64,000 nucleotides of DNA from Streptomyces aurantiacus. Its GTDB lineage: Bacteria > Actinomycetota > Actinomycetes > Streptomycetales > Streptomycetaceae. The notes under the pieces were generated by a model. It was given only the letters and a program-made list of their open reading frames with translations. It was not told the origin of the DNA and ran no database searches. The position numbers and the translations under genes were made by a program. The stretch is from contig NZ_CP114283.1 in assembly GCF_027107535.1 (NCBI RefSeq), positions 7,688,001 to 7,752,000 on the forward strand, in the 5' to 3' direction. Shown here in pieces: positions 5,717-63,494 of this stretch (within the stretch, counting starts at the first letter, position 1; every line of letters begins with the position of its first letter).

Positions 5717-6162
5717 TGGGCGCATGGGGGACGCTACTCGCAACCGTGGCCGGTGCCGCTATCGCTCTGATCGGACAGCATCTCGCGAAACGGGCTGAGA
5801 ACAAGGCGCGCGTCTCCGAACTGCTGTTGGAACAGTGCGCTTTGGTGGCGGCCACAGCTTCAGACTTCCAGAACCGAGTGTGGGAAGAACGGGTTCTACA
5901 CATGGAAGGACGCGTCAGCGGATGGGATCTGTCGGCCCACAAGCTCGCATGCGCACGTATACAGATCCTGTCCAGGGATCAAGCCCTACTCACGGCGCTG
6001 AGCGAGTTGAACAAGGCTGCTGAGAGCCTTGGTATCTACTGGCGACGGGGGAACGTCGATGACGACGAGTGCGCCAGACTCTGGGAGCGCCATCGCGCAG
6101 TCAAGGCAGAGTTCATCGCAGCTAGCAGTGGAGCGATACGCCGTCGCCTAACCCAGGGATGA
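5716..6162 (+). CDS. Hypothetical protein with N-terminal membrane segment
   Basis: This encodes 148 residues of no recognised family. MGAWGTLLATVAGAAIALIG forms one N-terminal membrane segment. The remainder is helical and charged (ENKARVSELLLEQ, DECARLWERHRAVKAEF) and probably cytoplasmic. The ATG at 5716 was chosen because the protein starts cleanly with its membrane segment there; frames opening at 5605 or 5650 lie inside the end of the integrase gene. It follows int by 55 bases on the same strand and is closed by a strong terminator. It may be a last cargo gene of the element or the first chromosomal gene. Confidence 0.6.
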   Translation: MGAWGTLLATVAGAAIALIGQHLAKRAENKARVSELLLEQCALVAATASDFQNRVWEERVLHMEGRVSGWDLSAHKLACARIQILSRDQALLTALSELNKAAESLGIYWRRGNVDDDECARLWERHRAVKAEFIAASSGAIRRRLTQG

Positions 6163-6203
6163 GCCTGCCGGACGGCCCAGGGACGGCCCACCGGACATAA
6201 GAG

Positions 6204-6240
6204 AGCCCCCTACTGGCGACATCATCGCTGGTGGGGGGCT
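6204..6240 (+). terminator. Strong terminator
   Basis: A 16-base stem (6204-6219 with 6225-6240) has only G-U wobbles as irregularities. The loop is CATCA and the tail is TCTTCG. It ends the gene at 5716-6162. Confidence 0.8.
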
Positions 6241-6492
6241 TCTTCGTGCCCGGAGGACATCAGTTCTCCGGGTGCAGGCATAACCCTCCCAGTGTCGCAG
6301 ATCAAATCATGTGACCTGGGCCGCCGAGTCCCGCAGGGAGGTCGTCCGGGGTCGAGCGGTCGTGGTCGGCTCGCCTGCGACGGCCATGAACGGCTCGGCG
6401 CGAGAGGCGTTCCCCCTGGCCGACGCACTGTCGACCCCCTTCGGGCCGTTCCGGCCGCGGCATCGCGCCCACGGGTCCGCTGGAGCAGGGCA

Positions 6493-6533
6493 TTGCCATA
6501 TAGGTCACCCCTGGACCTAGAATCGAACGCGTG
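6493..6533 (+). promoter_or_regulatory. Promoter-like site with internal inverted repeat
   Basis: TTGCCA (6493-6498) and TAGAAT (6518-6523) are 19 bases apart. Between them TAGGTC (6501-6506) mirrors GACCTA (6514-6519), overlapping the -10. A GTG follows the -10 after seven bases, as in leaderless genes. The downstream frame is unconvincing. Confidence 0.35.
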
Positions 6534-6865
6534 TCCGATAAAGCGTCTCACTTGGATCCTCAGCACAACGTCCGTACGGGGCCGGCCCGGCAGCCGCGCA
6601 GCGCAGATGACCCCGTCTCCGGGTCGGAGCGGCAGGAAGCCGCCGCCCGCCCCGCGCACACGCTGCCCTTGGCCGCGCCCGGCCGGGAGTTCGCCGTGCG
6701 GCGAACACGCGGCATGGCCGCCCCCGGCGCCGCCCGCCCAGGCCACCGCGGCGTGACGGGCGAGAACACGAAGCCGCGGTCCCGCGAGCAGGCCCTCCGG
6801 GCGGCCCCGGGACGCGGCGCCGCGGCATACCCCCGTTGCCGACCCCACACCGACTCCGGTGTGCT

Positions 6866-7108
6866 GTGAGCCGCGAACAGTCCCGGCCGCAGGGAAAGAG
6901 CACCGCCCCCATCGTCGTGCACCGCCTGACGGGCGCCGCTGGACGGCGGGTCACGATCCACTCCAGAAGGGCCGGCCTCGCCCACAGTGACGCCGACCTC
7001 ATCGAGTTTCTGCGCCGCGCGGGCCTGCCGGACGCGTCGGAGCTGCTGGACGATCCGTCGTGGGTGGAATGGCAGGGCGACCGACCGCACCAGTACGGCG
7101 CGGAATGA
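6866..7108 (+). CDS. Small conserved Streptomyces protein, unknown function
   Basis: This encodes about 80 residues. The core APIVVHRLTGAAGRRVTIHSRRAGLAHSDADLIEFLRRAGL followed by a DDPSWVEW motif is, from memory, a recurrent small protein family in Streptomyces without assigned function. No membrane segment, signal peptide or cysteine is seen; the fold is probably a small alpha/beta domain. The GTG at 6866 is preferred over the nominal start at 6836 because the family begins shortly before the TAPIVVH segment. The ribosome site is weak in either case. It is convergent with cdsA and shares the strong terminator that follows. Confidence 0.65.
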   Translation: MSREQSRPQGKSTAPIVVHRLTGAAGRRVTIHSRRAGLAHSDADLIEFLRRAGLPDASELLDDPSWVEWQGDRPHQYGAE

Positions 7109-7196
7109 CGACGCCGCGGGCGGTCCTGCGGCAAGCGCCCCCGGGCATGACGGACGGGACGCCGACGTGGAGGAGCTCGGCTGCGGACACACGAAA

Positions 7197-7229
7197 AGGG
7201 ACCCGCCGTCCTGTGGACGGCGGGTCCCT
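7197..7229. terminator. Bidirectional terminator after cdsA
   Basis: A perfect 15-bp stem (7197-7211 with 7215-7229) closes on the loop TGT. On the minus strand it is followed by TTTCGTG. It serves the end of the rpsB-cdsA group and the convergent small gene. Confidence 0.85.
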
Positions 7230-7380
7230 CACGTACCTTCCGCAGCTCGGCGACACCCTTCGGCGACCGTCGGCCGGACCACGGCGCCCGTCGACCGGAC
7301 CACCGCGACCGTCAGGCGAACCCGGCAGCCGTCCGCGGGACCCGGCAGCCGTCTCCGCGCACAGGAGTGGTCGTCAGCCG

Positions 7381-8496
7381 TCAGCCGGAGCCGACGAAGA
7401 TCACCAGCAGCAGCCACACCACAGGGGCCGTGGGAAGCAGGGAGTCCAGCCGGTCCATGATCCCGCCGTGGCCCGGGAGCAGGGTGCCCATGTCCTTGAT
7501 GCCCAGGTCCCGCTTGATCATCGACTCACCGAGGTCACCGAGCGTGGCACTGCCCGCGACCGCGACACCGAGGACCAGTCCCTGCCACCAGGTGCCGTCG
7601 TCGATGAGGAAGTGCATGCACAGCGCGCCCGCCACCATGGCGAAGGCCACCGCGCCGAACAGACCCTCGCGGGTCTTGCCGGGGCTGATGCGTGGAGCGA
7701 GCTTGTGCTTGCCGAAGCGCCAGCCGACGGCGTACGCACCCGTGTCACTGACCACGGCCAGCAGCAGGAACACGAGAACCCGCCGCGCACCGTCGTCCGC
7801 GCTGAGCATCATCGCCACGAACGTGGCGAGGAACGGGATGTAGAAAGCCGCGAAAACCCCCGCGGTGACGTCCTTGAGGTAGCCCTCGGGCGGTTCCGTC
7901 ATCCGCCAGACCAGGACCGCGAGCGCCGTGAGCGCCATCGCCACCCATGCGCCCTCGGCACCGCGGACGTAACCGGCGACGACCATCGCCGCGCCGCCCA
8001 ACGCCAGTGGCACGAGCGGCGCCTTGATGCCCTTGCGCTCCGCGAGCCTCGACGTGAGCTCCCACAGGCCCACCACGACGGCGACAGTTATGACGCCGAT
8101 GAAGGCGGCCTTGACGACGAACAACGAGGCGACGATCACCGCGCCGAGCCCGACCCCGACTCCTATGGCAGCGCCCAGGTCGCGGCCCGCGCTCTTCTTC
8201 TGCGGCGCGGGTGCGGGTTGCGCGGCGCTGGACATGGGCTCCTGCGGATTCTGCGACGGAGCCCGGTGAGGCGGCGTCGGCGTCTCGTCGCGGAACAGGG
8301 GGCCGCCCGTCCGAGCAGCCCCCCGGTCGTCGTCCTGGTCTCCGCCGTGTGCGGGTACGTCGGGCATGGGGCGAGTCTGCTGCGCGTTGTGCGCATCGTA
8401 CGCGGGACCCGCCGGGGCAACCCCCTGGACAGGCCCCTGGTCGGACGGCCCCCAGTACCCGGCTTGCGGCGGCGCCCCCCAGGAAGAGTCGTTCAT
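7381..8496 (-). CDS. cdsA: Phosphatidate cytidylyltransferase
   Basis: This membrane enzyme makes CDP-diacylglycerol from phosphatidate and CTP, the branch point to phosphatidylglycerol, cardiolipin and phosphatidylinositol. The family signature is complete: SDTGAYAVGWRFGKHKLAP then ISPGKTREG in the middle, and GDLGESMIKR, KDMGTLLPGHGGIMDRLDS at the C-terminus. About eight membrane segments start near residue 105. The first 95 residues are a disordered Pro/Gln/Asp-rich cytoplasmic extension, making the protein 371 residues where about 270-300 is usual. Its ATG overlaps the frr stop (ATGA), so the two are probably translationally coupled. Confidence 0.95.
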   Translation of the reverse strand: MNDSSWGAPPQAGYWGPSDQGPVQGVAPAGPAYDAHNAQQTRPMPDVPAHGGDQDDDRGAARTGGPLFRDETPTPPHRAPSQNPQEPMSSAAQPAPAPQKKSAGRDLGAAIGVGVGLGAVIVASLFVVKAAFIGVITVAVVVGLWELTSRLAERKGIKAPLVPLALGGAAMVVAGYVRGAEGAWVAMALTALAVLVWRMTEPPEGYLKDVTAGVFAAFYIPFLATFVAMMLSADDGARRVLVFLLLAVVSDTGAYAVGWRFGKHKLAPRISPGKTREGLFGAVAFAMVAGALCMHFLIDDGTWWQGLVLGVAVAGSATLGDLGESMIKRDLGIKDMGTLLPGHGGIMDRLDSLLPTAPVVWLLLVIFVGSG

Positions 8497-9053
8497 CAGA
8501 CCTCGAGCAGCTCAGCTTCCTTGTGCTTGAGCAGCTCGTCCACCTGGGCCACGTACTTCGCGGTGGTGTCGTCGAGCTCCTTCTCCGCACGGCGGCCCTC
8601 GTCCTCGCCGACCTCGCCGTCCTTGATCATCTTGTCGATGCCGTCCTTCGCCTTGCGGCGGACGGAACGGATCGAGATCTTGGAGTCCTCGGCCTTGGTC
8701 CGGGCGACCTTGATGTAGTCCTTGCGGCGCTCCTCGGTCAGCTCGGGGAACACCACCCGGATGATGTTGCCGTCGTTGCTCGGATTGACCCCGAGGTCGG
8801 AGTCACGGATCGCCTGTTCGATGTTGCGCATCGCGCTCTTGTCGAACGGCGTCACCACGGCCATGCGCGGCTCGGGCACCGAGAACGAGGCCAGCTGGTT
8901 GATCGGTGTCAGCGCGCCGTAGTAGTCCGCCACGATCTTGTTGAACATCGCCGGGTGCGCACGGCCGGTGCGGATCGCGGCGAAGTCCTCCTTGGCGACC
9001 ACGACGGCCTTCTCCATCTTCTCCTCGGCCTCGAGGAGGGTCTCTTCGATCAC
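8496..9053 (-). CDS. frr: Ribosome recycling factor
   Basis: This releases the ribosome from mRNA after termination, together with EF-G. The 185 residues have the family's usual length and show the conserved stretches [28 protein letters not shown] and [10 protein letters not shown]. Two GTG codons stand in tandem. The second (9053) is chosen because AGGAG lies six bases before it; the first (9056) would leave only three. The order pyrH-frr-cdsA on the minus strand is the standard bacterial arrangement. Confidence 0.95.
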
Positions 9054-9173
9054 CACTTGCTCCTGCGTGTCTTGAGTAGGCCCGGCTGCGGTTCCTTGAC
9101 GGGTAGGCGGCCGGCTGCGTCGCGTCTTGTTCCTGCACGGTTCCCGACCGGCAGGACATTGTCCATCCCCCGG

Positions 9174-9947
9174 TCAGGCCCGGCCGCCCTGGTCACCCAC
9201 AAGCGTGCCGATCTTCTCACCCTTGACCGCCCGCGCGATATTGCCCTCTGTCAGAAGCTCGAAGACGAGGATCGGGAGCTTGTTGTCGCGGCACAGGGTG
9301 ATCGCGGTCATGTCGGCGACCTTCAGGTCGCGGGTGATGACCTCGCCGTAGCTGAGCGAGTCGAACTTGACCGCTTCCGGGTTGGTCTTCGGGTCGGAGT
9401 CGTAGACCCCGTCCACACCGTTCTTGCCCATGAGCAGGGCCTCGGCGTCGATCTCCAGTGCGCGCTGGGCGGCGGTGGTGTCGGTGGAGAAGTACGGCAT
9501 GCCCATGCCGGCGCCGAAGATGACCACACGGCCCTTCTCCAGGTGGCGCACGGCGCGCAGCGGGATGTACGGCTCGGCGACCTGCCCCATGGTGATGGCG
9601 GTCTGCACGCGTGAGTCGATGCCCTCCTTCTCCAGGAAGTCCTGGAGGGCGAGGCAGTTCATGACGGTGCCGAGCATGCCCATGTAGTCGGAGCGGGCCC
9701 GGTCCATGCCGCGCTGCTGGAGTTCGGCCCCGCGGAAGAAGTTGCCGCCGCCGATGACGACGGCGATCTGGGCACCGCCGCGGACCACCGCGGCGATCTC
9801 CCGGGCCATCTTGTGCACCACGTCGGGGTCGACGCCGAGTGCCCCGCCACCGGCGAACGCCTCACCGGAAAGCTTCAGCAGGAAACGGCCGGCACCCTTG
9901 CCGGTATCGCCCTTTTCGTCCTTGTCGGCGGCCTTGGTGGTGGTCAT
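9174..9947 (-). CDS. pyrH: UMP kinase
   Basis: This hexameric kinase converts UMP to UDP in pyrimidine nucleotide synthesis. It has 257 residues, with the amino-acid-kinase fold signatures LLKLSGEAF near the N-terminus, [10 protein letters not shown], and the nucleotide-binding stretch [14 protein letters not shown] polar stretch of about 20 residues precedes the core, as is usual in Streptomyces. ATG at 9947 is chosen with GGCGAG upstream; the open frame continues to 10103 but that part contains the tsf terminator. It follows tsf and precedes frr on the minus strand. Confidence 0.95.
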
Positions 9948-9994
9948 GGAGATCTCGCCTCTTCTACGTGTCGCACGTGTCGCACATACGAAGA

Positions 9995-10044
9995 AGGCCA
10001 CTGCCGGTGGGGTGTTGTTCGCATCCCATGCTCGGCAATGGCCT
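9995..10044 (-). terminator. Terminator between tsf and pyrH
   Basis: AGGCCATTGCC pairs with GGCAGTGGCCT (minus strand) with one wobble, followed by TCTTCG. It may partly separate rpsB-tsf from pyrH-frr-cdsA expression. Confidence 0.65.
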
Positions 10045-10154
10045 CCTCGTCTGCTCTGCTGTCGTCCGTCACGCCCGCGCGTAACGGGATACGCGACCAG
10101 CACGGACGACTGCTGTCGACCCTAGCGGGATCGCGCGTCGATCGCGGTACGGAC

Positions 10155-10991
10155 TCAGATGCCGACCTTGATGCGCGCGAAGCGCTTCAGGGTGACACCG
10201 GCCTCGTCCAGGACCTTCTGGACGGACTTCTTCTGGTCGAGCGCGTACGGCTGACCGAGAAGCGTGGCCTCCTTGAAGAAGCCGTTGACGCGACCCTCGA
10301 CGATCTTCGGGAGCGCGGCCTCGGGCTTGCCCTCGGCGCGGGTGGTCTCCTCGGCGACGCGACGCTCGGACTCGACGACCTCGGCCGGAACGTCCTCACG
10401 GGAGAGGTACTTCGGCGCGAAGGCGGCGATGTGCTGCGCGATGCCCTTGGCGAGGTCGGCGTCGGCCTTGTCCAGCTCGACCAGGACACCGATCTGCGGG
10501 GGCAGGTCGGGCATGGTGCGGTGCATGTACGTGGCCACGTAGGCGCCGGAGAACTGCGCGAAGCGGTCCAGGACGATCTTCTCGCCCAGGTTGGCGTTGG
10601 CCTCGTCGACGAACGCCTGGACCGTCTTGCCGGACTCGATCTCCGAGGCGAGCAGCGCCTGGATGTCGGCCGGGGAGGTCGCGGCGGCGTGCTGGGCGAT
10701 CTGGTTGGCGACGGCCTGGAACTTCTCGCCCTTGGCGACGAAGTCCGTCTCGCACTTCAGCTCGACCAGGACACCGGAGGTGTTGTCGTCAGCGATGATG
10801 GAGACCACGGCGCCGTTCTCGGCGGAGCGGCCCTCGCGCTTGGCGACGCCCTTCTGGCCCTTGATGCGCAGCGCCTCGACGGCCTTGTCGACGTTGCCGT
10901 CGGCCTCGTCCAGCGCCTTCTTGCAGTCCATCATGCCGGCGCCGGTGAGCTCACGGAGCTTCTTGACGTCGGCGGCGGTGTAGTTCGCCAT
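10155..10991 (-). CDS. tsf: Elongation factor Ts
   Basis: This is the guanine nucleotide exchange factor for EF-Tu. It has 278 residues: an N-terminal UBA-like domain (VKKLRELTGAGMMDCKKALDEADGN), then the core with KCETDFVAKGEKF and a C-terminal domain ending in RFARIKVGI. The length matches actinobacterial EF-Ts. ATG at 10991 follows rpsB by about 150 bases on the same strand, and the gap contains an attenuator-like stem. Confidence 0.97.
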   Translation of the reverse strand: MANYTAADVKKLRELTGAGMMDCKKALDEADGNVDKAVEALRIKGQKGVAKREGRSAENGAVVSIIADDNTSGVLVELKCETDFVAKGEKFQAVANQIAQHAAATSPADIQALLASEIESGKTVQAFVDEANANLGEKIVLDRFAQFSGAYVATYMHRTMPDLPPQIGVLVELDKADADLAKGIAQHIAAFAPKYLSREDVPAEVVESERRVAEETTRAEGKPEAALPKIVEGRVNGFFKEATLLGQPYALDQKKSVQKVLDEAGVTLKRFARIKVGI

Positions 10992-11086
10992 GATCTGTGA
11001 ATCTCTTCTCGGAGTTCGAAGTCTCGAGGTCGGCGTCCGCCGCTGATCGGGCGGGCGTCCACCGAAGATCTACGGGCTGGGGGTGA

Positions 11087-51957: not shown

Positions 51958-53037
51958 TCAGCGGCCCTGTTCGTACGCTCTCAGCTGCTCCGCACTGATC
52001 ATGGTGGTGTCGAAGAGGCTGGTCTCGTCGAGCGTGTTCCCCTGCGCCTGGGGCGTCTGGGGGGCCGGCGCGTAGCCCTGCTGCTGGCCCTGGTCGTACG
52101 GGGCCTGCTGGTCGTAACCCTGCTGCGGGTAGGCGGCGTACGGGTCGGCCTGCTGGTAGCCGTACCCGTCCTGCTGCGCGTACTGCTGCTGGTAGCCATA
52201 GGGGTCGGTGGCCTGCTGCTGGTAGGCGTAGGCGTCCTGCTGCGCGTACTGCTGCTGGGCCGGGACCGCCGGGGGCTGGGGCCGGGCGGCGGGCTGGACC
52301 CGGGCGGACCGCTCGGGGATCTCCGCGAGGCCCTCCAGGTACTCGGCGTCGGTGGTGTGCCCCGTCGTCCCGTCCTCCCCGAAGGCGCCGAGCTCGCCCA
52401 GGTCGTCGCTGGCGATCCTGCCGTGCAGCTTCTGGCGGCCGCGGCCGACGGCGTCCAGGGTCTTGGCGAGGACGGCCTCGAAGGCGCCGAGCTTGACGTC
52501 GACGTATTCGTCGGCGTTGCGGCGCAGGGTCTCCGGGTCGTGGCTGCGCTCGGGGGCGTCCTCGTCCTCGTAGCCCCGCTCGTCGGTGCCGGGTCCGGTG
52601 CCGAGGAGCTTCTCGCGGCCCCGGCCGACCGAGCCGAGGGTCTTGGTGAGGACGACCTCGAAGTTGGCGAGCTTGGAGTCGACGTACTCGTCGGCCTCGG
52701 CCCGGACATCCTCGGCCTCCTTGCGGGCCTCGGCGAGGATCCGCTCGGCCTCGCTCTGCGAGCGGCGGGCGACCTCGGTGTCGGAGATCAGCGAACCGCG
52801 CTCGGCGTGCGCGGACTCGATGATCCGCTCGGCCTCCAGGCGGGCCTGCTCGACCATCTGCTCGCGGCCGCCGATCAGCTCCTGGGCCTGGGCGAGAGAG
52901 CCCGGCAGTGCCTGGCGCACCTCTTCGAGCAGGGAGAGGAGCTCGGCGCGGTTGACCACGCACGAGGCCGACATGGGCATGGAACGGGCGCTGCCGACCG
53001 CCGAGACGATCTCATCGAGCTTCTTCTGCACGTCCAC
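51958..53037 (-). CDS. DivIVA-like coiled-coil protein with Gln/Tyr-rich tail
   Basis: This encodes 359 residues. A coiled coil (about 25-125: LLSLLEEVRQALPGSLAQAQEL, ARLEAERIIESAHAERG, EAERILAEARKEAEDVRAEADEYV) resembles DivIVA and ATP synthase b-subunit coils. A 30-residue unit occurs twice: DEYVDSKLANFEVVLTKTL and DEYVDVKLGAFEAVLAKTL, each followed by a VGRGR..KL motif. The C-terminal 100 residues are Gln/Tyr/Pro-rich repeats (QQQYAQQDAYAYQQQ). Related genes are annotated as cell division initiation proteins. GTG at 53037. A scaffold role at the membrane or septum is an inference. Confidence 0.8.
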   Translation of the reverse strand: MDVQKKLDEIVSAVGSARSMPMSASCVVNRAELLSLLEEVRQALPGSLAQAQELIGGREQMVEQARLEAERIIESAHAERGSLISDTEVARRSQSEAERILAEARKEAEDVRAEADEYVDSKLANFEVVLTKTLGSVGRGREKLLGTGPGTDERGYEDEDAPERSHDPETLRRNADEYVDVKLGAFEAVLAKTLDAVGRGRQKLHGRIASDDLGELGAFGEDGTTGHTTDAEYLEGLAEIPERSARVQPAARPQPPAVPAQQQYAQQDAYAYQQQATDPYGYQQQYAQQDGYGYQQADPYAAYPQQGYDQQAPYDQGQQQGYAPAPQTPQAQGNTLDETSLFDTTMISAEQLRAYEQGR

Positions 53038-54411: not shown

Positions 54412-56622
54412 TCAGCCCTTTTCCAGGTACTGCTCCCTCTCTTCGTCCAGCAGGGCCTGGAGGGCCGTACGCAGGCCGGGCAGGTGCTCCAGGTCGGGGT
54501 CGGCGGTGACCACCGCGGTCGCCTCCTCGCGGGCCTCGGCGATGATCTCCTCGTCCTCGATGACGGCGAGCATCCGCAGTGAGGTGCGGGCGCCGGACTG
54601 GGCCTGGCCGAGGACGTCGCCCTCCCGCCGCTGTTCGAGGTCGATGCGGGAGAGCTCGAAGCCGTCGAGCGTGGCCGCCACCGACATCAGCCGTCGGCGG
54701 GCCGGGCTCGCCTCCGGCATCTCGGTGACGAGGAGGCACAGGCCCGCGGCGGAGCCACGGCCGACACGGCCCCGCAACTGGTGGAGCTGGGACACGCCGA
54801 ACCGGTCGGCGTCCATGATCACCATCGCTGTCGCGTTCGGTACGTTCACCCCGACCTCGATGACCGTCGTGGCGACCAGAACCTGCGTCTGCCCCGCGGC
54901 GAAGCGGCGCATCACCGCGTCCTTGTCGTCCGGGGGCATACGGCCGTGGAGCACCTCGACCCCGAGACCCTGGAGCGGGCCCTTCGCGAGCTGCTCGGCG
55001 ACGTCGAGGACCGCGAGGGGCGGGCGCTTCTCGGCCTCGTCCTCGGGAGACGGCTTCTTCCTGGACTTCTTCGGGTCGTCGTCCTCGTCACCGATGCGGG
55101 GGCAGACGACGTACGCCTGATGTCCGTTGGAGACCTCCTCCCGGACGCGCTCCCACGCGCGGGAGAGGAAGTGGGGCTTGTCGGCCGCCGGGACGACATG
55201 GCTGGCGATGGGTGAGCGCCCGGCGGGGAGCTGGTCCAGGACCGAGGTCTCCAGGTCGCCGAAGACGGTCATGGCGACCGTGCGGGGAATGGGCGTGGCG
55301 GTCATCACGAGGAGGTGCGGCGGCTGCTTGCCCTTGCCCCGCAGGGCGTCGCGCTGCTCGACGCCGAAGCGGTGCTGTTCGTCCACCACGACCAGCCCCA
55401 GGTCGTGGAACTGCACCTTGTCCTCGATCAGCGCGTGTGTGCCGATGACCAGCCCGGCCTCGCCCGTGACCAGGTCCAGCAGCGCCTGACGGCGGGCGGC
55501 CGTCCCCATGGAACCGGTCAGGAGCACCACCTTCGTGGAGTCCTCGGCGCCGCCGAGCATGCCGCCCTCGGCCAGCTCCCCCATCATCTCGGTGACCGAC
55601 CTGTGATGCTGCTGGGCGAGCACCTCGGTGGGCGCCAGCATCGCCGCCTGCCCGCCCGCGTCGACGACGGCGAGCATGGCGCGCAGGGCCACCATCGTCT
55701 TCCCGCTTCCGACCTCTCCCTGGAGCAGCCGGTGCATCGGGTGGTCCGTGGCCAGGTCGTCGAAGATCTCCTTGGAGACCTTCTGCTGGCCCTCGGTGAG
55801 GGTGAAGGGGAGCTTGGCGTCGAAGGCGGACAGCAGTCCGTCCTTCTTGGGCTTCCGTGCCACGGCGGGCAGTTGGGCGTCCGCGTGGCGGCGGCGGGCG
55901 AGGGCCACCTGGAGGACGAACGCCTCGTCCCACTTGAGGCGGGAGCGGGCGTCGTCGATGTCCGCCTTCGTGTGCGGGCGGTGGATCTTCAGCAGGGCCT
56001 CGGGGAGGGAGACCAGGCCCCGGCCGGACCGGAGCGGGTCGGGCAGCGGGTCGACGGCCTCCTGCGCGCTCGGCAGTACGGTCTGCACCGCCTTGGCGAT
56101 CTTCCAGGACTCCAGCTTGGCGGTCGCCGGATAGAGCGGGATCAGGGCTCCGGCCCAGGTGTCCACCGTCTCGGACTCGGCGTCGCCGCGCAGCAGCTCG
56201 TACGCGGGATGGGCCAGCTGGAGGCGGCGGTTGAAGACGGAGACCTTGCCCGCGAACAGCGCGCGGGTGCCGGGCAGGAGCTCCTTGTGGGGCTTGTGCA
56301 CGCCGTTGCCGAAGAAGACCAGCTTGAGCTGGCCGCTGCCGTCCGTGATGGTCACTTCGAGGCGCTGGCCCTTGCCGCGGGGGGCCTTGGGCGAGGCGAA
56401 CGTGAGCAGGCGGGCGTCGGCGACCTGGGCGACCACCGTCGCGTGCTCGTCCAGAGGGAGGTCGGCGAGGTGGGTGAGCTGTCCCCGCTCCTCGTACCTG
56501 CGCGGATAGTGGTGCAGCAGGTCGCCGACGGTGTGCAGGCCGAGATGCTCGGCCATCACCTTCGCGGTGGCGGGTCCGAGCACCTTCTTCAGTGGTTCTT
56601 CGAGCACGGGCACGAGATCCAT
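54412..56622 (-). CDS. recG: ATP-dependent DNA helicase RecG
   Basis: This branch-migration helicase reverses stalled forks and processes recombination intermediates. It has 736 residues: an N-terminal wedge/OB domain (LPLDEHATVVAQVADARLL), Walker A GEVGSGKT, Walker B DEQHRFGV, motif III TATPIPRT, motif V TTVIEVGVNVPNA, motif VI QLRGRVGRG and the TRG region near the C-terminus. A Lys/Glu-rich insert (DDPKKSRKKPSPEDEAEKR) lies between the helicase lobes. ATG at 56622. It precedes rsmD-coaD on the minus strand. Confidence 0.95.
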   Translation of the reverse strand: MDLVPVLEEPLKKVLGPATAKVMAEHLGLHTVGDLLHHYPRRYEERGQLTHLADLPLDEHATVVAQVADARLLTFASPKAPRGKGQRLEVTITDGSGQLKLVFFGNGVHKPHKELLPGTRALFAGKVSVFNRRLQLAHPAYELLRGDAESETVDTWAGALIPLYPATAKLESWKIAKAVQTVLPSAQEAVDPLPDPLRSGRGLVSLPEALLKIHRPHTKADIDDARSRLKWDEAFVLQVALARRRHADAQLPAVARKPKKDGLLSAFDAKLPFTLTEGQQKVSKEIFDDLATDHPMHRLLQGEVGSGKTMVALRAMLAVVDAGGQAAMLAPTEVLAQQHHRSVTEMMGELAEGGMLGGAEDSTKVVLLTGSMGTAARRQALLDLVTGEAGLVIGTHALIEDKVQFHDLGLVVVDEQHRFGVEQRDALRGKGKQPPHLLVMTATPIPRTVAMTVFGDLETSVLDQLPAGRSPIASHVVPAADKPHFLSRAWERVREEVSNGHQAYVVCPRIGDEDDDPKKSRKKPSPEDEAEKRPPLAVLDVAEQLAKGPLQGLGVEVLHGRMPPDDKDAVMRRFAAGQTQVLVATTVIEVGVNVPNATAMVIMDADRFGVSQLHQLRGRVGRGSAAGLCLLVTEMPEASPARRRLMSVAATLDGFELSRIDLEQRREGDVLGQAQSGARTSLRMLAVIEDEEIIAEAREEATAVVTADPDLEHLPGLRTALQALLDEEREQYLEKG

Positions 56623-56786
56623 TGCACACCACGGCACTGACAATGCCGTATACGTCCCGGAAATCCGCTGGTCAGACGGCTCGTTCGGGGCCTAGGATGA
56701 CCCGCTCCGGCCCTGTTCGCGGTCATCTCGTCCCGGGACCGCCCGACCCCGCGCCGTCGCACGTCCCCCCACCGGCGCAGCGACGT

Positions 56787-58625
56787 ATGGACTCCCAGAC
56801 CTCACAGTCATCTCAGGCATCCCAGTCACCTCGTACGTTCCAGGTCGACCTGCGCGGCCTCGTGGACCTTCTCTCCCATCACCTCTACTCCAGTCCCAAG
56901 GTCTACCTGCGGGAGCTGCTGCAGAACGCCGTGGACGCGATCACCGCCCGCCGCGCCGAGCAGCCGGACGCGCCTGCCCTGGTGCGGCTGTTCGCCGGGG
57001 GCGGCACCCTGCGCGTGGAGGACTCCGGGATCGGGCTCACCGAGACGGACGTGCACAGCCTCCTGGCGACCATCGGCCGCAGCTCCAAGCGGGCCGACGG
57101 CCTGGAGTCGGCCCGTTCCGACTTCCTCGGCCAGTTCGGCATCGGCCTGCTCGCCTGCTTCGTGGTCGCCGAGCGCATCCGCGTGGTGAGCCGCAGCGCG
57201 CGCACGCCCGACGCGCCGCCCGTCGAGTGGACGGCGACCGACGACGGCTCCTACACGGTCCGTACGCTGCCGCACGCGGCCCGCGCCGAACCGGGCACTA
57301 CCGTGTACCTGGAGGCCCGCCCGGGCGCCGCGGACTGGCTGGCCGCGGACCGGGTGCTGTCGCTGGCCCGGGACTTCGGATCGCTGCTGCCGTACGACGT
57401 CCGGGTGGGCGACGAGACGGTGACGGACCTTCCGGCGCCCTGGGACCGCGCCTACCCCAGTCCAGCCACCCGGAGGGTGGCCCTGGCCCGGCACTGCCAC
57501 GACCTGTTCGGGTTCACGCCGCTGGACTCGATCGAGCTGAACGTGCCGCTGGCCGGGATCCGCGGGACGGCGTACGTGCTGCCGTCCGCGGTCAGCCCCG
57601 CCCAGCGCGCCGGTCATCGTGTGCACCTGAAGGGCATGCTGCTCACCGAGCGGGCCGAACAACTGCTGCCCGACTGGGCGTTCTTCGTGCGCTGTGTCCT
57701 CGACACGGACAGCCTGCGGCCCACCGCGTCGAGGGAGTCGCTGTACGAGGACGAGACCCTGGCGGGGGTGCGGGAGGCGCTGGGCGAGCGGATCCGGGCC
57801 TGGCTGACGGGGCTCGCGGCCGGTGATCCGGAGCGGCTGGCCGCCTTCCTGTCGGTGCACCACCTGGGGGTCAAGTCCCTGGCGCGGCACGACAGCGAGA
57901 TGCTGCGCACGATGCTGCCGTGGCTGCCCTTCGAGACCACCGACGGGCATCTGTCGCTGGAGGAGTTCGCCCAGCGGCACCCGGTGGTGCACTTCACGCG
58001 GACCGTGGAGGAGTACCGCCAGGTCGCGCCGATCGCGTCCGCGCAGGGCGTGGGCGTGGTGAACGGCGGCTACACGTACGACAGCGAGCTCGTCGAGGCG
58101 CTGCCCTCGGTGCGCCCGGGGACGGTCGTGGCGGAGCTGGACGCCGACACGGTGACCGCGCATCTGGACGCGGTGGACCCCGCCGAGGAACTGGCTCTGT
58201 CGGCCTTCCTGGGAGCCGCGCGGGCGAAACTCGACCCCCTTGGGTGCGACGTCGTCCTGCGGGCCTTCCATCCGCTGTCCGTGCCCGCCCTGCACCTGGA
58301 CGACCGGTCGGCCCGCCACGAGCAGGCCCGCGCGGACGCCGAGGAGCAGGCCGACGACCTGTGGGCGGGCATCCTCGGCTCCCTGCGCGGCAGCGCCCCG
58401 CGCGCGCGTCTGGTGCTCAACCACCTGAACCCGCTGATCCGGCGGATCAGTTCGCTCGACGACCGCGAACTGATCGGCACGGCCACGGAGTCGCTCTACG
58501 GACAGGCCCTTCTGATGGCGCAGCGCCCGCTGCGGCCGGCGGACTCGGCGCTCCTGAACCGGGCGTTCATCGGGCTCCTGGAGTGGGCCACCCACAGCAA
58601 CCCCCCGGAGGAGGGTCCCCGATGA
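56787..58625 (+). CDS. HSP90-family (HtpG-like) ATPase
   Basis: This encodes 612 residues. The GHKL ATP site is complete: LRELLQNAVDA (E43, N47, D50), VEDSGIGLTE (D79, G81, G83) and GQFGIGLLACFVV (115-125). The middle domain keeps the catalytic-type Arg in LRPTASRESLYED. The last 130 residues diverge from HtpG. The first 16 residues are Ser/Gln-rich. ATG at 56787 lacks a ribosome site; an ATG at 56697 is in frame, and TAGGAT just before it may be a -10. The stop overlaps the TPR gene start (ATGA), so the two are translationally coupled. Confidence 0.85.
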   Translation: MDSQTSQSSQASQSPRTFQVDLRGLVDLLSHHLYSSPKVYLRELLQNAVDAITARRAEQPDAPALVRLFAGGGTLRVEDSGIGLTETDVHSLLATIGRSSKRADGLESARSDFLGQFGIGLLACFVVAERIRVVSRSARTPDAPPVEWTATDDGSYTVRTLPHAARAEPGTTVYLEARPGAADWLAADRVLSLARDFGSLLPYDVRVGDETVTDLPAPWDRAYPSPATRRVALARHCHDLFGFTPLDSIELNVPLAGIRGTAYVLPSAVSPAQRAGHRVHLKGMLLTERAEQLLPDWAFFVRCVLDTDSLRPTASRESLYEDETLAGVREALGERIRAWLTGLAAGDPERLAAFLSVHHLGVKSLARHDSEMLRTMLPWLPFETTDGHLSLEEFAQRHPVVHFTRTVEEYRQVAPIASAQGVGVVNGGYTYDSELVEALPSVRPGTVVAELDADTVTAHLDAVDPAEELALSAFLGAARAKLDPLGCDVVLRAFHPLSVPALHLDDRSARHEQARADAEEQADDLWAGILGSLRGSAPRARLVLNHLNPLIRRISSLDDRELIGTATESLYGQALLMAQRPLRPADSALLNRAFIGLLEWATHSNPPEEGPR

Positions 58626-61615
58626 GCCGTCCCATGGACTCAGGCATGGACTTCGAGACGCTGCGCCGGGCGATGCAGGAGAACTACGAGCAGCCGGAGG
58701 GGCCCGCCCGCAACGCGCGCGCGGAGCAGCTGCTCGCCGAGGCCGAGAAGCTGAACATCCCGCTGGCCGTGATCGAGGCGCTCGGCCACCAGCTGAAGGT
58801 CTACAACTACAGCTCCGAGAAGGACAGGATGTTCGTCCCCTTCGCGCGCCTGCTGCGCATGTGGGACGAACGGCCCGAGGACTTCGACGAGTACGAGACC
58901 CACTCCCTGCACTGGGTCTTCAAGTGGGTGTCCTCGGGCATGATCGGCCAGCCGCACATCCCGCTCGCCTCCATCGAGAAGTGGCTCGGCGAGATGGAGC
59001 ACCGCTACCGGCTCGCCGGGCATTCGGAACGGGCGGTCCGCAGCACCGAGTTCACGGTGGCGCGGTCCATCGGGGACATGGCCCGGGCCGAGCGGGCGTA
59101 CACCGCGTGGCTGGCCGCGGACCGGGACCGGATGGCCGACTGCCACGCCTGTGAACTGCACGACCAGGGCTGGTGGCGGGCCGAGCGGGGCGCCGACGCC
59201 GAGGCCCTGGAGCTGTGGCGGCCCGTCCTGGAGGGCGAGTACACGTGCGCCCACGAACCGCACGCGGTCCTCGCGTCCTCTCTGCTGCCCCTGCTGCGGC
59301 TCGGCCGCCTGGACGAGGCGCGGGCCCACCACCTGCGCGGTTTCCGGCTCGTGCGCCCCATGGAGAGCATGCGCGGCGCGTACGCGGACCACGTGGAGTT
59401 CTGCGCGCTCACCGGGAACGAGGCACGTGCCCTGGAGCTGCTCGCGGAGCGTCCCGCGTACTTCACGGACAGCGGGGAGCCACGCAGCCGGATGGACTTC
59501 CTGGCCGTGGTCGCCCTGCTGGCGGACCGCCTGACCGCCCTCGGGTTCGGTACCCAGGACGTGCCGGGTCCGGCCGGCCGCACCTGGACCGCGAGCGAAC
59601 TCGCCGCCCACGCGCGCGTGGAGGCCCTTTTGCTGGCCGGGCGCTTCGACGAGCGCAACGGCACGGCGTACGTGAGCGGGCGGGTCCGCCGGCGCATGGA
59701 CCAGCGGCCTCTGGTGGAGCGCCTGCCGCTGGGCGTCCGGTCGGCACGGGCCGTGACCGCTCCCGTCAGGCCCGTGCCGGCTCCCGCGGCCGCCACCGGG
59801 CCGGATCTGCCCGCGCTGCTCACCGAGGCCCGCCGGCTGTCGGAGTCCCTGCACCCGGAGTCCGTCACGGCGTGGGCGGCGGTGGCCGAGGCGCTGGGGG
59901 ACGGGGAACTGTCTCCGCGCGACCGCGCCGAGATGACCGACCACCGGGCGATGGGCCTCGGGCCCGAGGGCGTGGAGCTGTTCGCCCGCGCCGCCGAGCT
60001 GTACGAGGAGGCGGGCGACCCGGGCGAGGCGCTGGCCACGCGCGCGCGTGGCGCGTACGTACTGGCCCTGTCCGGCCGGAGCAAGGAGGCGCTGGCCGCG
60101 GTCTCGGAGCCGTACGAGCTGGTTCTCGCGCTCTTCGCGGAGGGCGGCACCGGGGTCCGGCAGGCCGCTTCGGTGCTGGTGGGACGGGCACGCATCCTGC
60201 TGCAGCGGGTGCAGGAGGCGGCCGAGACGAACGGGGCGGGGGACGGGTCCAAGGTCCTGGCCGCCGCGGAGACCGCCGCCCGGGAGCTGCTGGCCCTCGC
60301 CGAGCCGGAAGCGGGCAACGATCTCCTGGTGGCCGCACGCGCCGCCGAGGCCCAGGCCATGCTCGGGATGCTCGCGGCGCACGCCCAGGACGCGGAGAGG
60401 GCCGCGGAGCTGCTCACGCGGGCCGCGGAGGCGTTCGTCGCGGCCGGGCTGCCGTGGTTCGCGGTGGAGTACGAGGCGCGGCTCGCCGGGCTCGCGCGTC
60501 ATCTGGGCGACGCCGAGGCGGCCGAGCGGGCGGCCCGGGCGGCGCTGGAGCACGGGGCGCCCTTCATGGAGGCGACGGGCCAGGCCCAGCTGCACCTCCA
60601 GCTGGCCGAGACGCTGGGCGCCACCGGACGGTTCGGGCCTGCCGCGGACCACGCCCTGGAGGCGTCGCACTGGGCCGACGAGGGGGGTGAGGGGGCCACT
60701 CTGGGCGCCTGGGCCAGGCATCAGCTCGGTGGCTTCCTGCTGCGCCAGGGGCGGTGGGCGGAGGCCGCCGTGGTGCTGGAGTCGGTGCTGCCGGAACTGG
60801 ACGCGCGGACGCACGGCGACGGGGCGGTCGTGCAGACCCGGTGGTGGCTCGGCGACTGCCTCACCGAGCTCGGCGAGCACCGTGAGGCGGCCGAACACTG
60901 GCTGCGGGCCGCCGAGATCGCGCGGCGGTGGCCCGAGCAGCACGACCACGCGATGCTCGCCCATCTCGCCGCCGAGGCCCTGGGCCACGCGGGGCTCGAT
61001 TCCGAGGCGGAGCAGGCGTACGAGCGCGCCGGTGACCTGTGGCGGTCCCTCGGCAACGTCCACGGGCTGATCCGCGCGCTGCGGGCCCGCGCGTGGCTCG
61101 TGGTGCGGGCGGACCGCGTGAACGGCGCCGACGACGCGGACAGCACGGACGACGGAGGTGACAGGGAGGCCGCCGGGCTCGACGCGGCAAGGGAGTTGAT
61201 GAGCACGGCCGTCCGCGCGTGCGAGGCCGCGGAGCCCGAGGACGACGGCGCGCGCGAGCTGCTGGTGACCGAACTCGCCCACACGCACCGGCAGTTCGGC
61301 GATCTGGTCGCCCGTTCCGTATCCGACGACGCCGACGACGACGCGATCCGCGCCCTGTTCGAGGAGGCGCTGGCCCACATCGCCCTGGCCGTCTCCGGCT
61401 TCCTCTCGCTCGGCGAGGACGCGCTCCACAGCCGTACGGGTGCCGAACTCGCCGCCGGTCGGCTGGAGGCCGACCTGGAGCACCCCGGCCGGGCGGCCGC
61501 CCGCGCGCGTGCGGTACTCACCGCGTACGCCGGGCACGACGACGCGGACGAGACGGTGACGGCGCGACGGGCCGAGGCGGAGCGGCTGCTGCGGGCGACG
61601 GAGCCGGCCGAGTAG
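58622..61615 (+). CDS. Large TPR protein coupled to the HSP90-like gene
   Basis: This encodes 997 residues, almost entirely helical. The N-terminal 330 residues (MENYEQ-like start, EKLNIPLAVIEALGHQLKVYNYSSEKDR, YETHSLHWVFKWVSSGM) form a conserved block with SEL/TPR-like repeats. The remainder has many TPR-type helix pairs (AAELYEEAGDPGEALATRARGAY; ASHWADEGGEGATLGAWARHQLG; AAEHWLRAAEIARRW). No catalytic motif or membrane segment is seen. TPR domains are the standard partners of eukaryotic HSP90, so a client adaptor or co-chaperone is a reasonable but unproven role. ATG at 58622 overlaps the upstream stop. Confidence 0.82.
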   Translation: MSRPMDSGMDFETLRRAMQENYEQPEGPARNARAEQLLAEAEKLNIPLAVIEALGHQLKVYNYSSEKDRMFVPFARLLRMWDERPEDFDEYETHSLHWVFKWVSSGMIGQPHIPLASIEKWLGEMEHRYRLAGHSERAVRSTEFTVARSIGDMARAERAYTAWLAADRDRMADCHACELHDQGWWRAERGADAEALELWRPVLEGEYTCAHEPHAVLASSLLPLLRLGRLDEARAHHLRGFRLVRPMESMRGAYADHVEFCALTGNEARALELLAERPAYFTDSGEPRSRMDFLAVVALLADRLTALGFGTQDVPGPAGRTWTASELAAHARVEALLLAGRFDERNGTAYVSGRVRRRMDQRPLVERLPLGVRSARAVTAPVRPVPAPAAATGPDLPALLTEARRLSESLHPESVTAWAAVAEALGDGELSPRDRAEMTDHRAMGLGPEGVELFARAAELYEEAGDPGEALATRARGAYVLALSGRSKEALAAVSEPYELVLALFAEGGTGVRQAASVLVGRARILLQRVQEAAETNGAGDGSKVLAAAETAARELLALAEPEAGNDLLVAARAAEAQAMLGMLAAHAQDAERAAELLTRAAEAFVAAGLPWFAVEYEARLAGLARHLGDAEAAERAARAALEHGAPFMEATGQAQLHLQLAETLGATGRFGPAADHALEASHWADEGGEGATLGAWARHQLGGFLLRQGRWAEAAVVLESVLPELDARTHGDGAVVQTRWWLGDCLTELGEHREAAEHWLRAAEIARRWPEQHDHAMLAHLAAEALGHAGLDSEAEQAYERAGDLWRSLGNVHGLIRALRARAWLVVRADRVNGADDADSTDDGGDREAAGLDAARELMSTAVRACEAAEPEDDGARELLVTELAHTHRQFGDLVARSVSDDADDDAIRALFEEALAHIALAVSGFLSLGEDALHSRTGAELAAGRLEADLEHPGRAAARARAVLTAYAGHDDADETVTARRAEAERLLRATEPAE

Positions 61616-61709: not shown

Positions 61710-63494
61710 CTACTCCACGCCGATCAGCAGCAGGGCTCCCTGGCGTCCGCCCCGGTACACGACCGTGTCCACCGCCAGGTAGGACTCCCGGACCCGGGCT
61801 TCGAGGTGGGCCGCGATGGTGTCCGGGGCCTCGTCGCCGAGGACCAGGGTGACCATCTCGCCGCCCGCCGAGAGCATCCGGTTCAGGACCGCCTCGGCGG
61901 TGGCCGTGACGTCGGAGCCGATCACGGCCACGTCCCCGTCGATGAGGCCGAGGACGTCACCGGCCTGGCAGATGCCGGCCATGGTCCAGGACTGCCGTTC
62001 CGCGACCTCCACCTCGGCGTGCCGGGTCGCTCCGGCGGCCGAGGTCATCGCGACCACGTCCTCGTCGAAGCGCCTCTCGGGCTCGTGCACCGCGAGTGCG
62101 GCGATGCCCTGCACCGCGGAGCGGGTGGGGATCAGCGCGACCCTGACGCCCTCGGCCCGGGCCTGCTCGGCCGCCGCGGCCGCGGTGTGGCGCAGCTCGG
62201 CGTCGTTCGGCAGGAGCACCACCTCGACCGCGTGGGCCCGCCGTACCGCCTCGACGAGCTCCCCGCTCGCCGGCGGCTCCCCCGGTCGGGCGAGGACGGT
62301 GGTGGCCCCGGCCTCGGCGTAGAGCCGCGCGAGACCCTCGCCGGGGACGACGGCCACGACCGCGCGCTGGGTCCGCTCCCGGACCGGCCGGGTGGTCGAG
62401 CCCGTCGTGTGCGCGTCGTCCAGGCCGAAGTGCGTGATCCGGATCCGGTACGGCCGGCCGGCCTCGACGCCCGCCTCCACGGCCGCGCCCGCGTCGTCGA
62501 CATGCACGTGGATGTTCCACAGGCCGTCGCCGCCGACCACGACGAGCGAGTCCCCGAGCGCGTCGAGCCGGTCGCGCAGCCGGACCACGGCAGCGTCGTC
62601 CGCCTCCAGGAGGTAGATCACCTCGAACGCGGGGCCGCTCTCCTCCTGCTCGGGGCCGGCTGCGCACTCCCCCGCGTCGCCCGGGTCTGCGGGCGGCTCC
62701 GTCACGGCGGCGTCCACGCGCGCGTGCGGTGCGGTCACGTCCGGTATGTCCCCCACGCGCGCGGGGGACGCCAGCACGGGCACCGCTCCGGCCGCGGGGG
62801 CCTCGCCGGTGAACGTCTCCACCAGTGCCGCGAGCACGGCCACGAGTCCGCGTCCGCCGGCGTCCACCACGCCGGCCCGCTCCAGGACCGCCAGCTGCCC
62901 GGGAGTCGCCGCGAGGGCCGCCCGCGCGCCCTCGTAGGCGGCCCGCGCGACCACCGCGCAGTCCCCGTCCGCGCCGGAGGCCGCGTCGGCGGCGGCCGTG
63001 GCGACGGTGAGGACCGTGCCCTCGACCGGGCGCGCGACGGCCAGCCGGGCCGCGTCGGCGGCGTGCCGGAGGGCGAGCCCCAGGCCCGGGCCGTCGGCGT
63101 GGGCGGCGTCACTGTCGGCGGCGAGCACCTGGGACATGCCCCGCAGGAGCTGCGCGAGGATCGTCCCGGAGTTCCCCCGGGCCCCGATGAGCGCGCCGTG
63201 CGCCATGGCGTGCACGGCGTCGGCGAGCGAGGGCCGATCGACCACCGGCACCCCGGGGACGGCGCCGGGCGCCGCGCGGCCGGCGGAGACGGTGGCGTGG
63301 CCCGCGAAGACGGCCTCGACCGCCGCGGCCGCCGACTCCACGGTCAGATAGAGGTTGGTGCCGGTGTCCCCGTCCGCGACGGGATAGACATTGATCGCGT
63401 CGATCTCCTCGCGCGCGCGGCCGAGGGCCGCCAGCGCGAATCCGCACCAGGCACGTACCGCGGATGCGTCCAATGTCTGCGGCACCTGCGGCAC
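61710..63494 (-). CDS. DhaL/FakA-like kinase-domain protein
   Basis: This encodes 594 residues. The N-terminal DhaL domain has the nucleotide site in NVYPVADGDTGTNLYLT (residues 35-51) and GALIGARGNSGTILAQLLRG. A linker and two further domains follow (EVIYLLEADDAAVVRLRDRL; VVLLPNDAELRHTA and RSAVQGIAAL). This is the architecture of FakA, the fatty acid kinase subunit that works with FakB (DegV) proteins; no fakB is in the window. GTG at 63494 follows AAGGAGG. It is divergent from rpmB, its usual neighbour in Gram-positive bacteria. Confidence 0.88.
   Translation of the reverse strand: MPQVPQTLDASAVRAWCGFALAALGRAREEIDAINVYPVADGDTGTNLYLTVESAAAAVEAVFAGHATVSAGRAAPGAVPGVPVVDRPSLADAVHAMAHGALIGARGNSGTILAQLLRGMSQVLAADSDAAHADGPGLGLALRHAADAARLAVARPVEGTVLTVATAAADAASGADGDCAVVARAAYEGARAALAATPGQLAVLERAGVVDAGGRGLVAVLAALVETFTGEAPAAGAVPVLASPARVGDIPDVTAPHARVDAAVTEPPADPGDAGECAAGPEQEESGPAFEVIYLLEADDAAVVRLRDRLDALGDSLVVVGGDGLWNIHVHVDDAGAAVEAGVEAGRPYRIRITHFGLDDAHTTGSTTRPVRERTQRAVVAVVPGEGLARLYAEAGATTVLARPGEPPASGELVEAVRRAHAVEVVLLPNDAELRHTAAAAAEQARAEGVRVALIPTRSAVQGIAALAVHEPERRFDEDVVAMTSAAGATRHAEVEVAERQSWTMAGICQAGDVLGLIDGDVAVIGSDVTATAEAVLNRMLSAGGEMVTLVLGDEAPDTIAAHLEARVRESYLAVDTVVYRGGRQGALLLIGVE

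Follow-up and report, generated by a model that had tools for sequence, protein, structure and literature searches.

An hsp90C-type Hsp90 in Streptomyces aurantiacus and the overlapping gene for a TPR protein, its candidate dedicated partner

INTRODUCTION

Does a bacterial Hsp90 have a dedicated partner protein of its own? Eukaryotic Hsp90 works with tetratricopeptide repeat (TPR) co-chaperones, such as Hop, FKBP51, and PP5. The question is raised for bacteria by two adjoining genes in a 64,000-nucleotide stretch of the Streptomyces aurantiacus genome (contig NZ_CP114283.1, positions 7,688,001 to 7,752,000 of the forward strand), referred to here as the window. The first gene encodes an Hsp90 family protein (P0001), and the second encodes a large TPR protein (P0002). 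P0001 scored 862 bits with the NCBIfam model NF010683 ("HSP90 family protein"), passing the cut-off of 455 by 400 bits, and this family probably corresponds to "hsp90C", a paralogue excluded from an earlier co-evolution study. An original prediction, made from the letters of the window, had proposed that the two proteins form a dedicated bacterial HSP90-TPR machine. Our analysis suggests that the pair is probably one machine, an hsp90C ATPase with its own dedicated adaptor or co-chaperone. An adaptor role is proposed because the two genes are paired nearly exclusively, commonly overlap, are inherited together, and are jointly present or absent at one genomic site.

Bacterial HTPG proteins are split into groups A, B, and C in the available text of Chen 2006 (PMC1525184), with the two copies of Streptomyces coelicolor in different groups. 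According to the available portion of Press 2013 (PMC3708813), no obligate Hsp90 co-chaperone has been identified in bacteria; hsp90B and hsp90C were left out of that analysis. No partner for hsp90C is described in the accessible parts of either paper. Orthologues of Hop, Aha1, and P23 are not apparent in the eubacterial cytosol, according to an excerpt of PMC8082187. A 2012 review (PMC3603443) states, in the section available, that there is no evidence for a specific HtpG function in a streptomycete, and it reports, citing Millson 2011, that the HtpG of Streptomyces hygroscopicus binds nucleotide. Papers mentioning lmo0942 or lmo0941 give no function for them in the text available. The original prediction knew of no described function for the pair, and our search of the open-access PMC literature agreed, finding no description of hsp90C with this partner. 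The Hsp90 family is known, and it appears that an exclusive partner for hsp90C is undescribed.

RESULTS AND DISCUSSION

Co-occurrence and adjacency of hsp90C and its partner

Three sets of genomes were searched: a phylum-wide draw (246 genomes), a class-wide draw (296 genomes), and a second, family-level draw around genome G352 (251 genomes). In the phylum-wide draw NF010683 was over its cut-off in 10 of the 246 genomes, and relatives of P0002 were found in 14. Class-wide, hsp90C was found in 39 genomes and the partner domain, the conserved N-terminal region of P0002, in 42 at E <= 0.001. One partner match (G243, 20.7 bits) was dropped as weak, which left 41, and the hsp90C of G352 was only narrowly counted (454 bits alone, 479.7 bits with its neighbours in frame). 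Thirty-eight of the 296 genomes held both genes, 1 held hsp90C only, 3 held the partner only, and 254 held neither (Fisher p 3e-43, a value that ignores relatedness). The corresponding counts for the 31 genomes of the window's genus were 22, 0, 1, and 8. The co-occurrence across actinobacteria on which the original prediction depended was thus borne out, and separate occurrence was infrequent: the partner was present in 38 of 39 hsp90C genomes and hsp90C in 38 of 41 genomes with a strong partner match.

The two genes are also neighbours. For 43 of the 44 hsp90C genes in the class-level genomes, the partner domain is encoded by the next downstream gene on the same strand. The exception is G352, in which the gene for an unrelated TPR protein of 297 amino acids overlaps hsp90C by four bases (-4) in the partner's place. 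The second draw held hsp90C in 24 of its 251 genomes, and all 22 new ones had the partner next; 20 of these partners were recognized by model and two (L309 and L311) by homology to the partner of L310, itself a weak, 42-bit match. Similarly, a plasmid collection has six records with an hsp90C match at E <= 1e-60, and the partner is present in all of them; two further records have a partner-like gene with no listed hsp90C (Actinomyces oris and, weakly at E 3e-3, Priestia). The link spans two phyla, Actinobacteria and Firmicutes. Same-strand adjacency of hsp90C and the partner is far beyond chance.

The gene order, Hsp90 and then TPR, was the same in all 35 pairs for which the gene caller found both genes. 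The four-base overlap described for the window is real when the ATG at 58622 is taken as the TPR start, and both open reading frames are intact in this 9.9-Mb genome. The "fixed 1:1 coupling" of the original prediction stands as far as 1:1 pairing and constant order are concerned. The overlap itself is common, not fixed, since 16 of the 35 called pairs are spaced at -4 within a range of -8 to +61 nucleotides, and a second sample ranged from -11 to +87.

In two genomes a member of the pair is split between frames, the partner at G023:C1:6124216-6127180 and the Hsp90 at G499:C1:2671016-2672793; either may reflect sequencing error or decay. Record L228 (MT837560.1), from human faeces and labelled "Bacteriophage sp.", carries an hsp90C-partner pair resembling those of actinobacteria; this is probably a contig of bacterial origin.

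Genomic sites and co-inheritance of the pair

Nine Streptomyces loci, the window among them, have the pair flanked by recG and fakA; in one of these, two extra genes come before fakA. Twelve Streptomyces genomes that lack the pair here were examined, and in every one fakA is immediately upstream of recG and in the same orientation, at a distance of 26 to 585 nucleotides. Nine of these 12 lack hsp90C, and three (G104, G443, and G346) carry the pair elsewhere. Thus, the window pair forms a block of two genes at this site, for which insertion between fakA and recG is the simplest explanation and precise deletion the alternative.

Elsewhere the pair is found beside a DUF4034-like gene in a second Streptomyces clade, beside secE and the cluster that follows it (three loci, family f8), and beside a MoxR-VWA cluster in one genus. 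Among the clustered loci the partner is the only neighbour common to all settings; the next most widespread neighbour families are found in nine. In the second Streptomyces clade a gene for a protein of about 330 amino acids, some homologues of which are named DUF4034, lies 5' of the pair in all eight loci of this clade retrieved from the class sample (L055, L057, L059, L060, and L137 to L140). This suggests a three-gene version of the system in that clade. The proteins tested had no Pfam match, the gene was not seen beside other pairs, and it is not homologous to the partner.

The MoxR-VWA setting was considered as a possible system component and rejected. In L061:4240-8446, genes for a MoxR-type AAA protein and a VWA protein (both by Pfam) precede the pair, and a CTP_transf-type gene follows it. 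Mutually homologous genes that match those of L061 in size and order lie 5' of the pair in L291 to L295. This arrangement was seen in one genus and probably represents an insertion-site neighbour in a conserved cluster. The 2.9 kb preceding the pair in G305, which is nearest to G214 in the tree, contained no MoxR or VWA homologue.

Trees of the Hsp90 and the partner were compared for 42 paired loci; L141, whose hsp90 lies in two frames, and the weak L144 were excluded. Patristic distances correlated at 0.93. The trees had 26 and 22 splits with support of at least 95, of which 20 were common, and there were no supported conflicts. Five genomes (G023, G153, G391, G408, and G459) carry two pairs, and in each of them every hsp90C adjoins its own partner. 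For the two whose pairs were both in the trees (G023 and G153), each Hsp90 and its own partner fall in the same clades.

It could be argued that the two genes are merely co-regulated, serving the same stress or pathway without contact between their products and being kept together for expression only. Translational overlap alone is no proof of contact, and the spacing of the pair varies in both samples. However, the pairing is nearly exclusive despite changes of location and across phyla, and no supported tree conflict was found even where two pairs share a genome. We therefore regard co-regulation without contact as decidedly unlikely.

The Hsp90 belongs to a family distinct from HtpG

The NF010683 model spans residues 13 to 605 of P0001. 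In contrast, the HtpG model NF003555 gave 172.9 bits in a weak alignment over residues 16 to 580 and did not reach its cut-off of 371. No HtpG over cut-off was found in the window genome, in which P0001 is the sole Hsp90 found. In a tree, 45 group-C-side sequences were separated from 20 HtpG sequences with support of 100/100 and in 100% of 200 bootstrap trees; the 45 include distant Hsp90-like sequences from Xanthomonas and Pseudanabaena, and several long branches were flagged.

The ATP site had been described as intact, and it is: E43, N47, D50, D79, G83, and T171 are all present in P0001, as is R316 of the middle domain. These seven residues are invariant in the 122 group-C sequences aligned, a set that excludes P0001 and two distant sequences and in which about 79 are near relatives from Streptomyces. 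With the ATP site and the catalytic-loop arginine kept, P0001 is predicted to be an Hsp90 ATPase. The two families differ at other positions. At position 320, which we take to be equivalent to the catalytic-loop residue Q384 of yeast Hsp90, 112 of the 122 group-C sequences have Tyr, whereas all 20 HtpG sequences have Gln; the Tyr may point to an atypical basal ATPase rate. Group-C sequences have Q46, K101, and L121-L122 where HtpG sequences have S, S/T, and F-Y.

The C-terminus of P0001 had been called diverged. This is so relative to HtpG but not within the family, in which the model extends to residue 605 and scattered C-terminal positions (e.g., N545, L570, Y571, and A574) are invariant in 14 diverse members. 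An attempt to assign the S. hygroscopicus HtpG to hsp90C failed; the two residues named in the available part of PMC3603443 do not separate hsp90C from HtpG.

The TPR partner and its N-terminal domain

P0002 had no NCBIfam or PADLOC match. In its C-terminal half Pfam TPR_12 matched at E 1.2e-6 with 29 bits, just below the cut-off of 30.1, and Pfam TPR matches were strongest within residues 696 to 803. The protein had been thought to have no other domain. This view has to be abandoned because residues 1 to 374 form a separate conserved domain that stands alone elsewhere. In Listeria (L225 and L226) and Paenibacillus (L227) the whole partner is a domain of this type, 320 to 353 amino acids long, and two actinobacterial genomes (G522 and G545) have a 355-amino-acid version. 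The actinobacterial partner model scored the L226 and L227 proteins at 134 to 170 bits, and hhalign aligned the Paenibacillus partner to the partner domain over 320 columns at 99.8%. Given these domain-only partners, the C-terminal TPR array is either a lineage-specific extension or a part that was lost in the lineages with short partners.

Three cysteines of the domain, C174, C177, and C209, are jointly kept in 64 of 71 aligned partners. Near the domain end is an FDxRN motif, the D and R of which are kept in all 69 sequences with coverage. A search of solved structures with the partner-domain profile found no convincing relative; the best match, Heter-Zn2-HEHE-22A (E 8e-4), is not relied on.

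The TPR protein might instead be a major client of hsp90C, since large repeat proteins may need a chaperone. Most partners are large, reaching about 1,000 amino acids, and a client would be lost along with its chaperone. This explanation seems highly improbable for a protein that is only 320 to 355 amino acids long in Listeria, Paenibacillus, G522, and G545, and of which Listeria L226 has two tandem copies (L225 has one). The L226 locus (5980-11078) continues after the Hsp90 and the two partners with genes for a SUKH protein and a low-molecular-weight tyrosine phosphatase.

Relatives of the partner domain associated with YbjN

In G192 (L064:7532-9609) and in a second copy in G396 (L121:6969-9019), the partner domain is fused to YbjN, and a separate YbjN gene lies 5'. 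In Actinomyces oris (L232:3319-8036) the gene for a partner-like protein of 1,011 amino acids comes after two others, one encoding YbjN and one whose YbjN match is weak and below cut-off. No hsp90C was found in these three YbjN-associated loci. YbjN resembles type III secretion chaperones. By analogy, this association offers an independent hint of an adaptor role for the partner domain.

Two other actinobacterial loci have the partner domain with no hsp90C. The partner of G162 is immediately preceded by an IS110-type transposase gene. In G493 (L135:6918-9752) a 945-amino-acid partner is followed by a gene encoding a cyclic-nucleotide-binding domain.

Proposed function of the pair

Several observations weigh against a dedicated hsp90C-adaptor machine. 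The presence of the partner domain without hsp90C in G162, G192, and G493, as well as the YbjN-fused second copy in G396, indicates that the domain has some independent life, and YbjN was not identified beside the partner of G162 or G493, whose neighbours were scanned only partly. Firmicute pairs come from two genera only, Listeria and Paenibacillus. Species descent accounts in part for both the tree agreement and the co-occurrence. The heat-shock operators CIRCE and HAIR were sought upstream and not found, with 9 and 7 mismatches in the best matches. Seven of the 71 partners lack one or more of the three cysteines, and six of these still belong to a pair, so the triad is not essential. All three cysteines are lost together in the partners of L297, L298, and L300, and C174 alone is lost in those of L309 to L311; L233, a weak relative that does not adjoin an hsp90C, is without C174 and C177 in both alignments.

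The dedicated machine of the original prediction survives as a 1:1 gene unit defined by co-occurrence, not as a copy of eukaryotic docking. EEVD was found neither at the C-terminus nor in the last 12 residues of any of 37 hsp90C sequences, and its absence excludes the eukaryotic MEEVD docking mode for hsp90C. In the mechanism that we propose, the 1-374 domain of the partner would bind hsp90C without a C-terminal MEEVD as the docking surface and would tune the ATP cycle of hsp90C. Clients would be selected by the C-terminal TPR array, which is variable, and would be presented by the partner to hsp90C. The cysteine triad would hold a metal or sense thiol oxidation, thereby gating the complex. 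The pair probably serves a particular client set or stress rather than core folding because it is accessory, present in 22 of the 31 genomes of the genus.

More tentatively, the pair may represent an independently evolved class of obligate bacterial Hsp90 co-chaperone, a helical-repeat regulator of hsp90C with a three-cysteine metal or redox site, which either pre-dates the split of Actinobacteria and Firmicutes or spread between them as a two-gene block, and alongside which the distant Hsp90-like proteins of Xanthomonas and Pseudanabaena seem to have acquired unrelated, similarly placed TPR partners. We consider this broader scenario possible but somewhat doubtful.

The partner is one specific protein and a strong candidate for the role of dedicated helper to a bacterial Hsp90. 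Through it, the question of whether bacteria have a dedicated Hsp90 co-chaperone becomes directly testable. The short partners of 320 to 355 amino acids offer a minimal domain for study, and strains that carry or lack the pair occur naturally.

Possible relation to conflict systems

In a further alternative, which the original prediction had also raised, the pair would act in conflict or stress signalling, with the GHKL/Hsp90 ATPase as a switch and the TPR protein as a sensor, and would be directed against phage or damage, not at protein folding. Patchy presence and the use of several genomic sites are consistent with such a role. So is a distant Pseudanabaena plasmid locus, in which an Hsp90-like protein has a weak C-terminal TIR-like match and TPR and TIR-domain genes are nearby. 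However, no Pfam effector domain was found in P0001 or P0002, and PADLOC matches of the Hsp90 are limited to the common ATPase fold, with no match of the window pair or its relatives to a described anti-phage system beyond that fold. The window pair sits between fakA and recG, outside any defence cluster, and P0001 retains the full-length NF010683 architecture and the catalytic-loop arginine. Three pattern-plus-tblastn scans of 2.9 million viral contigs recovered no relative. Of the records in a "phages" collection, 13 had a match to P0001 at E <= 1e-10, and in two the match covered at least 80% of P0001; the best was L228, the probable bacterial contig described above. Short Listeria-named records of the same collection matched hsp90C or the partner. 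Defence or sensing thus found little support, and we consider it unlikely.

The Pseudanabaena locus (L234:4237-9819) looks like a conflict-type relative. Its first gene encodes an Hsp90-like protein whose C-terminal CAP12/TIR-like match is weak (E 0.001, sub-cut-off); a 232-amino-acid protein and a TPR protein come next, and an adjoining gene is annotated as TIR-domain. The Pseudanabaena proteins also match models for TIR and TPR weakly. On a Xanthomonas vasicola plasmid (L235:4947-9170) the gene for an Hsp90-like ATPase is followed, after a 24-nucleotide gap, by that for a 774-amino-acid TPR protein. The TPR proteins of Xanthomonas, Pseudanabaena, and G352 gave no convincing sign of homology to the partner domain (hhalign probabilities of 18, 0.5, and 1.0, respectively) and were excluded from the counts.

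Features of the window

The features of the gene pair and its flanks are collected in Table 1. A strict sigma-70 promoter scan upstream of the window Hsp90 gene gave no match. A protein encoded at window positions 51958-53037, in the recG-coaD cluster, weakly resembles DivIVA and also Scy, a polarity protein, with both matches under the cut-off.

Table 1. Coordinates of the hsp90C-partner pair and neighbouring features in the window
Feature	Position	Strand	Basis
hsp90C-type Hsp90 family protein P0001 (NF010683), 612 amino acids	56787..58625	+	NF010683 profile; phmmer matches to TRAP1 and HtpG chains
N-terminal GHKL ATP-binding region, approximate limits	56838..57449	+	N-domain chains align at about residues 17-219
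E43 codon and N47 codon within the GHKL region	56913-56915 and 56925-56927	+	Conserved
R316 codon, aligned to the Hsp90 catalytic-loop Arg	57732..57734	+	Alignment of group-C and HtpG sequences
GGAGGAGGG, ribosome-binding-like run in the end of the Hsp90 gene	58607..58615	+	Read directly; 6 nucleotides 5' of the TPR start
ATGA, overlap of Hsp90 stop and TPR start	58622..58625	+	Ends of the open reading frames
TPR partner protein P0002, 997 amino acids	58622..61615	+	Open reading frame; Pfam TPR matches
N-terminal partner domain, residues 1-374	58622..59743	+	Occurs alone in Listeria, Paenibacillus, and two actinobacteria
Cys triad: C174 (59141-59143), C177 (59150-59152), C209 (59246-59248)	59141..59248	+	Partner alignment
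C-terminal TPR array, length varying by lineage	59744..61612	+	Pfam TPR and homologue comparison
recG, one flank of the insertion site	54412..56622	-	NF008167, 1143.9 bits
fakA/YloV-like DAK2 gene, other flank of the insertion site	61710..63494	-	TIGR03599, 430 bits
Candidate promoter-like block 5' of the Hsp90 gene: TGGTCA, 18 nucleotides, TAGGAT	56669..56698	+	Conserved in 59 aligned upstream sequences

Comparison with known systems

P0001, with 612 amino acids and 66.6 kDa, is close to the S. coelicolor HTPG2 given in the available text of PMC1525184 (615 amino acids, 66.7 kDa), a comparison by size only. Canonical HtpG (NF003555) has the same ATP-site residues as P0001. The ATPases of Tiamat (TmtA) and of BbrUII-type restriction systems match P0001 in the GHKL fold, over about 120 residues, with no match reported outside it.

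The MoxR-vWA ternary conflict systems (Kaur 2020, PMC7159879) are also composed of an ATPase and helper modules and are found in actinobacteria, and in one genus the pair has MoxR and VWA genes ahead of it. The window pair differs in having recG and fakA as its flanks and no adjoining MoxR or VWA gene. The words "HSP90" and "GHKL" were not found in the main text of PMC7159879.

The pair can also be compared with the eukaryotic Hsp90-TPR co-chaperones, the likeness being that an Hsp90 is paired with a TPR protein. The bacterial arrangement differs in that its partner domain belongs to a different, cysteine-bearing family and in that its genes are paired 1:1.

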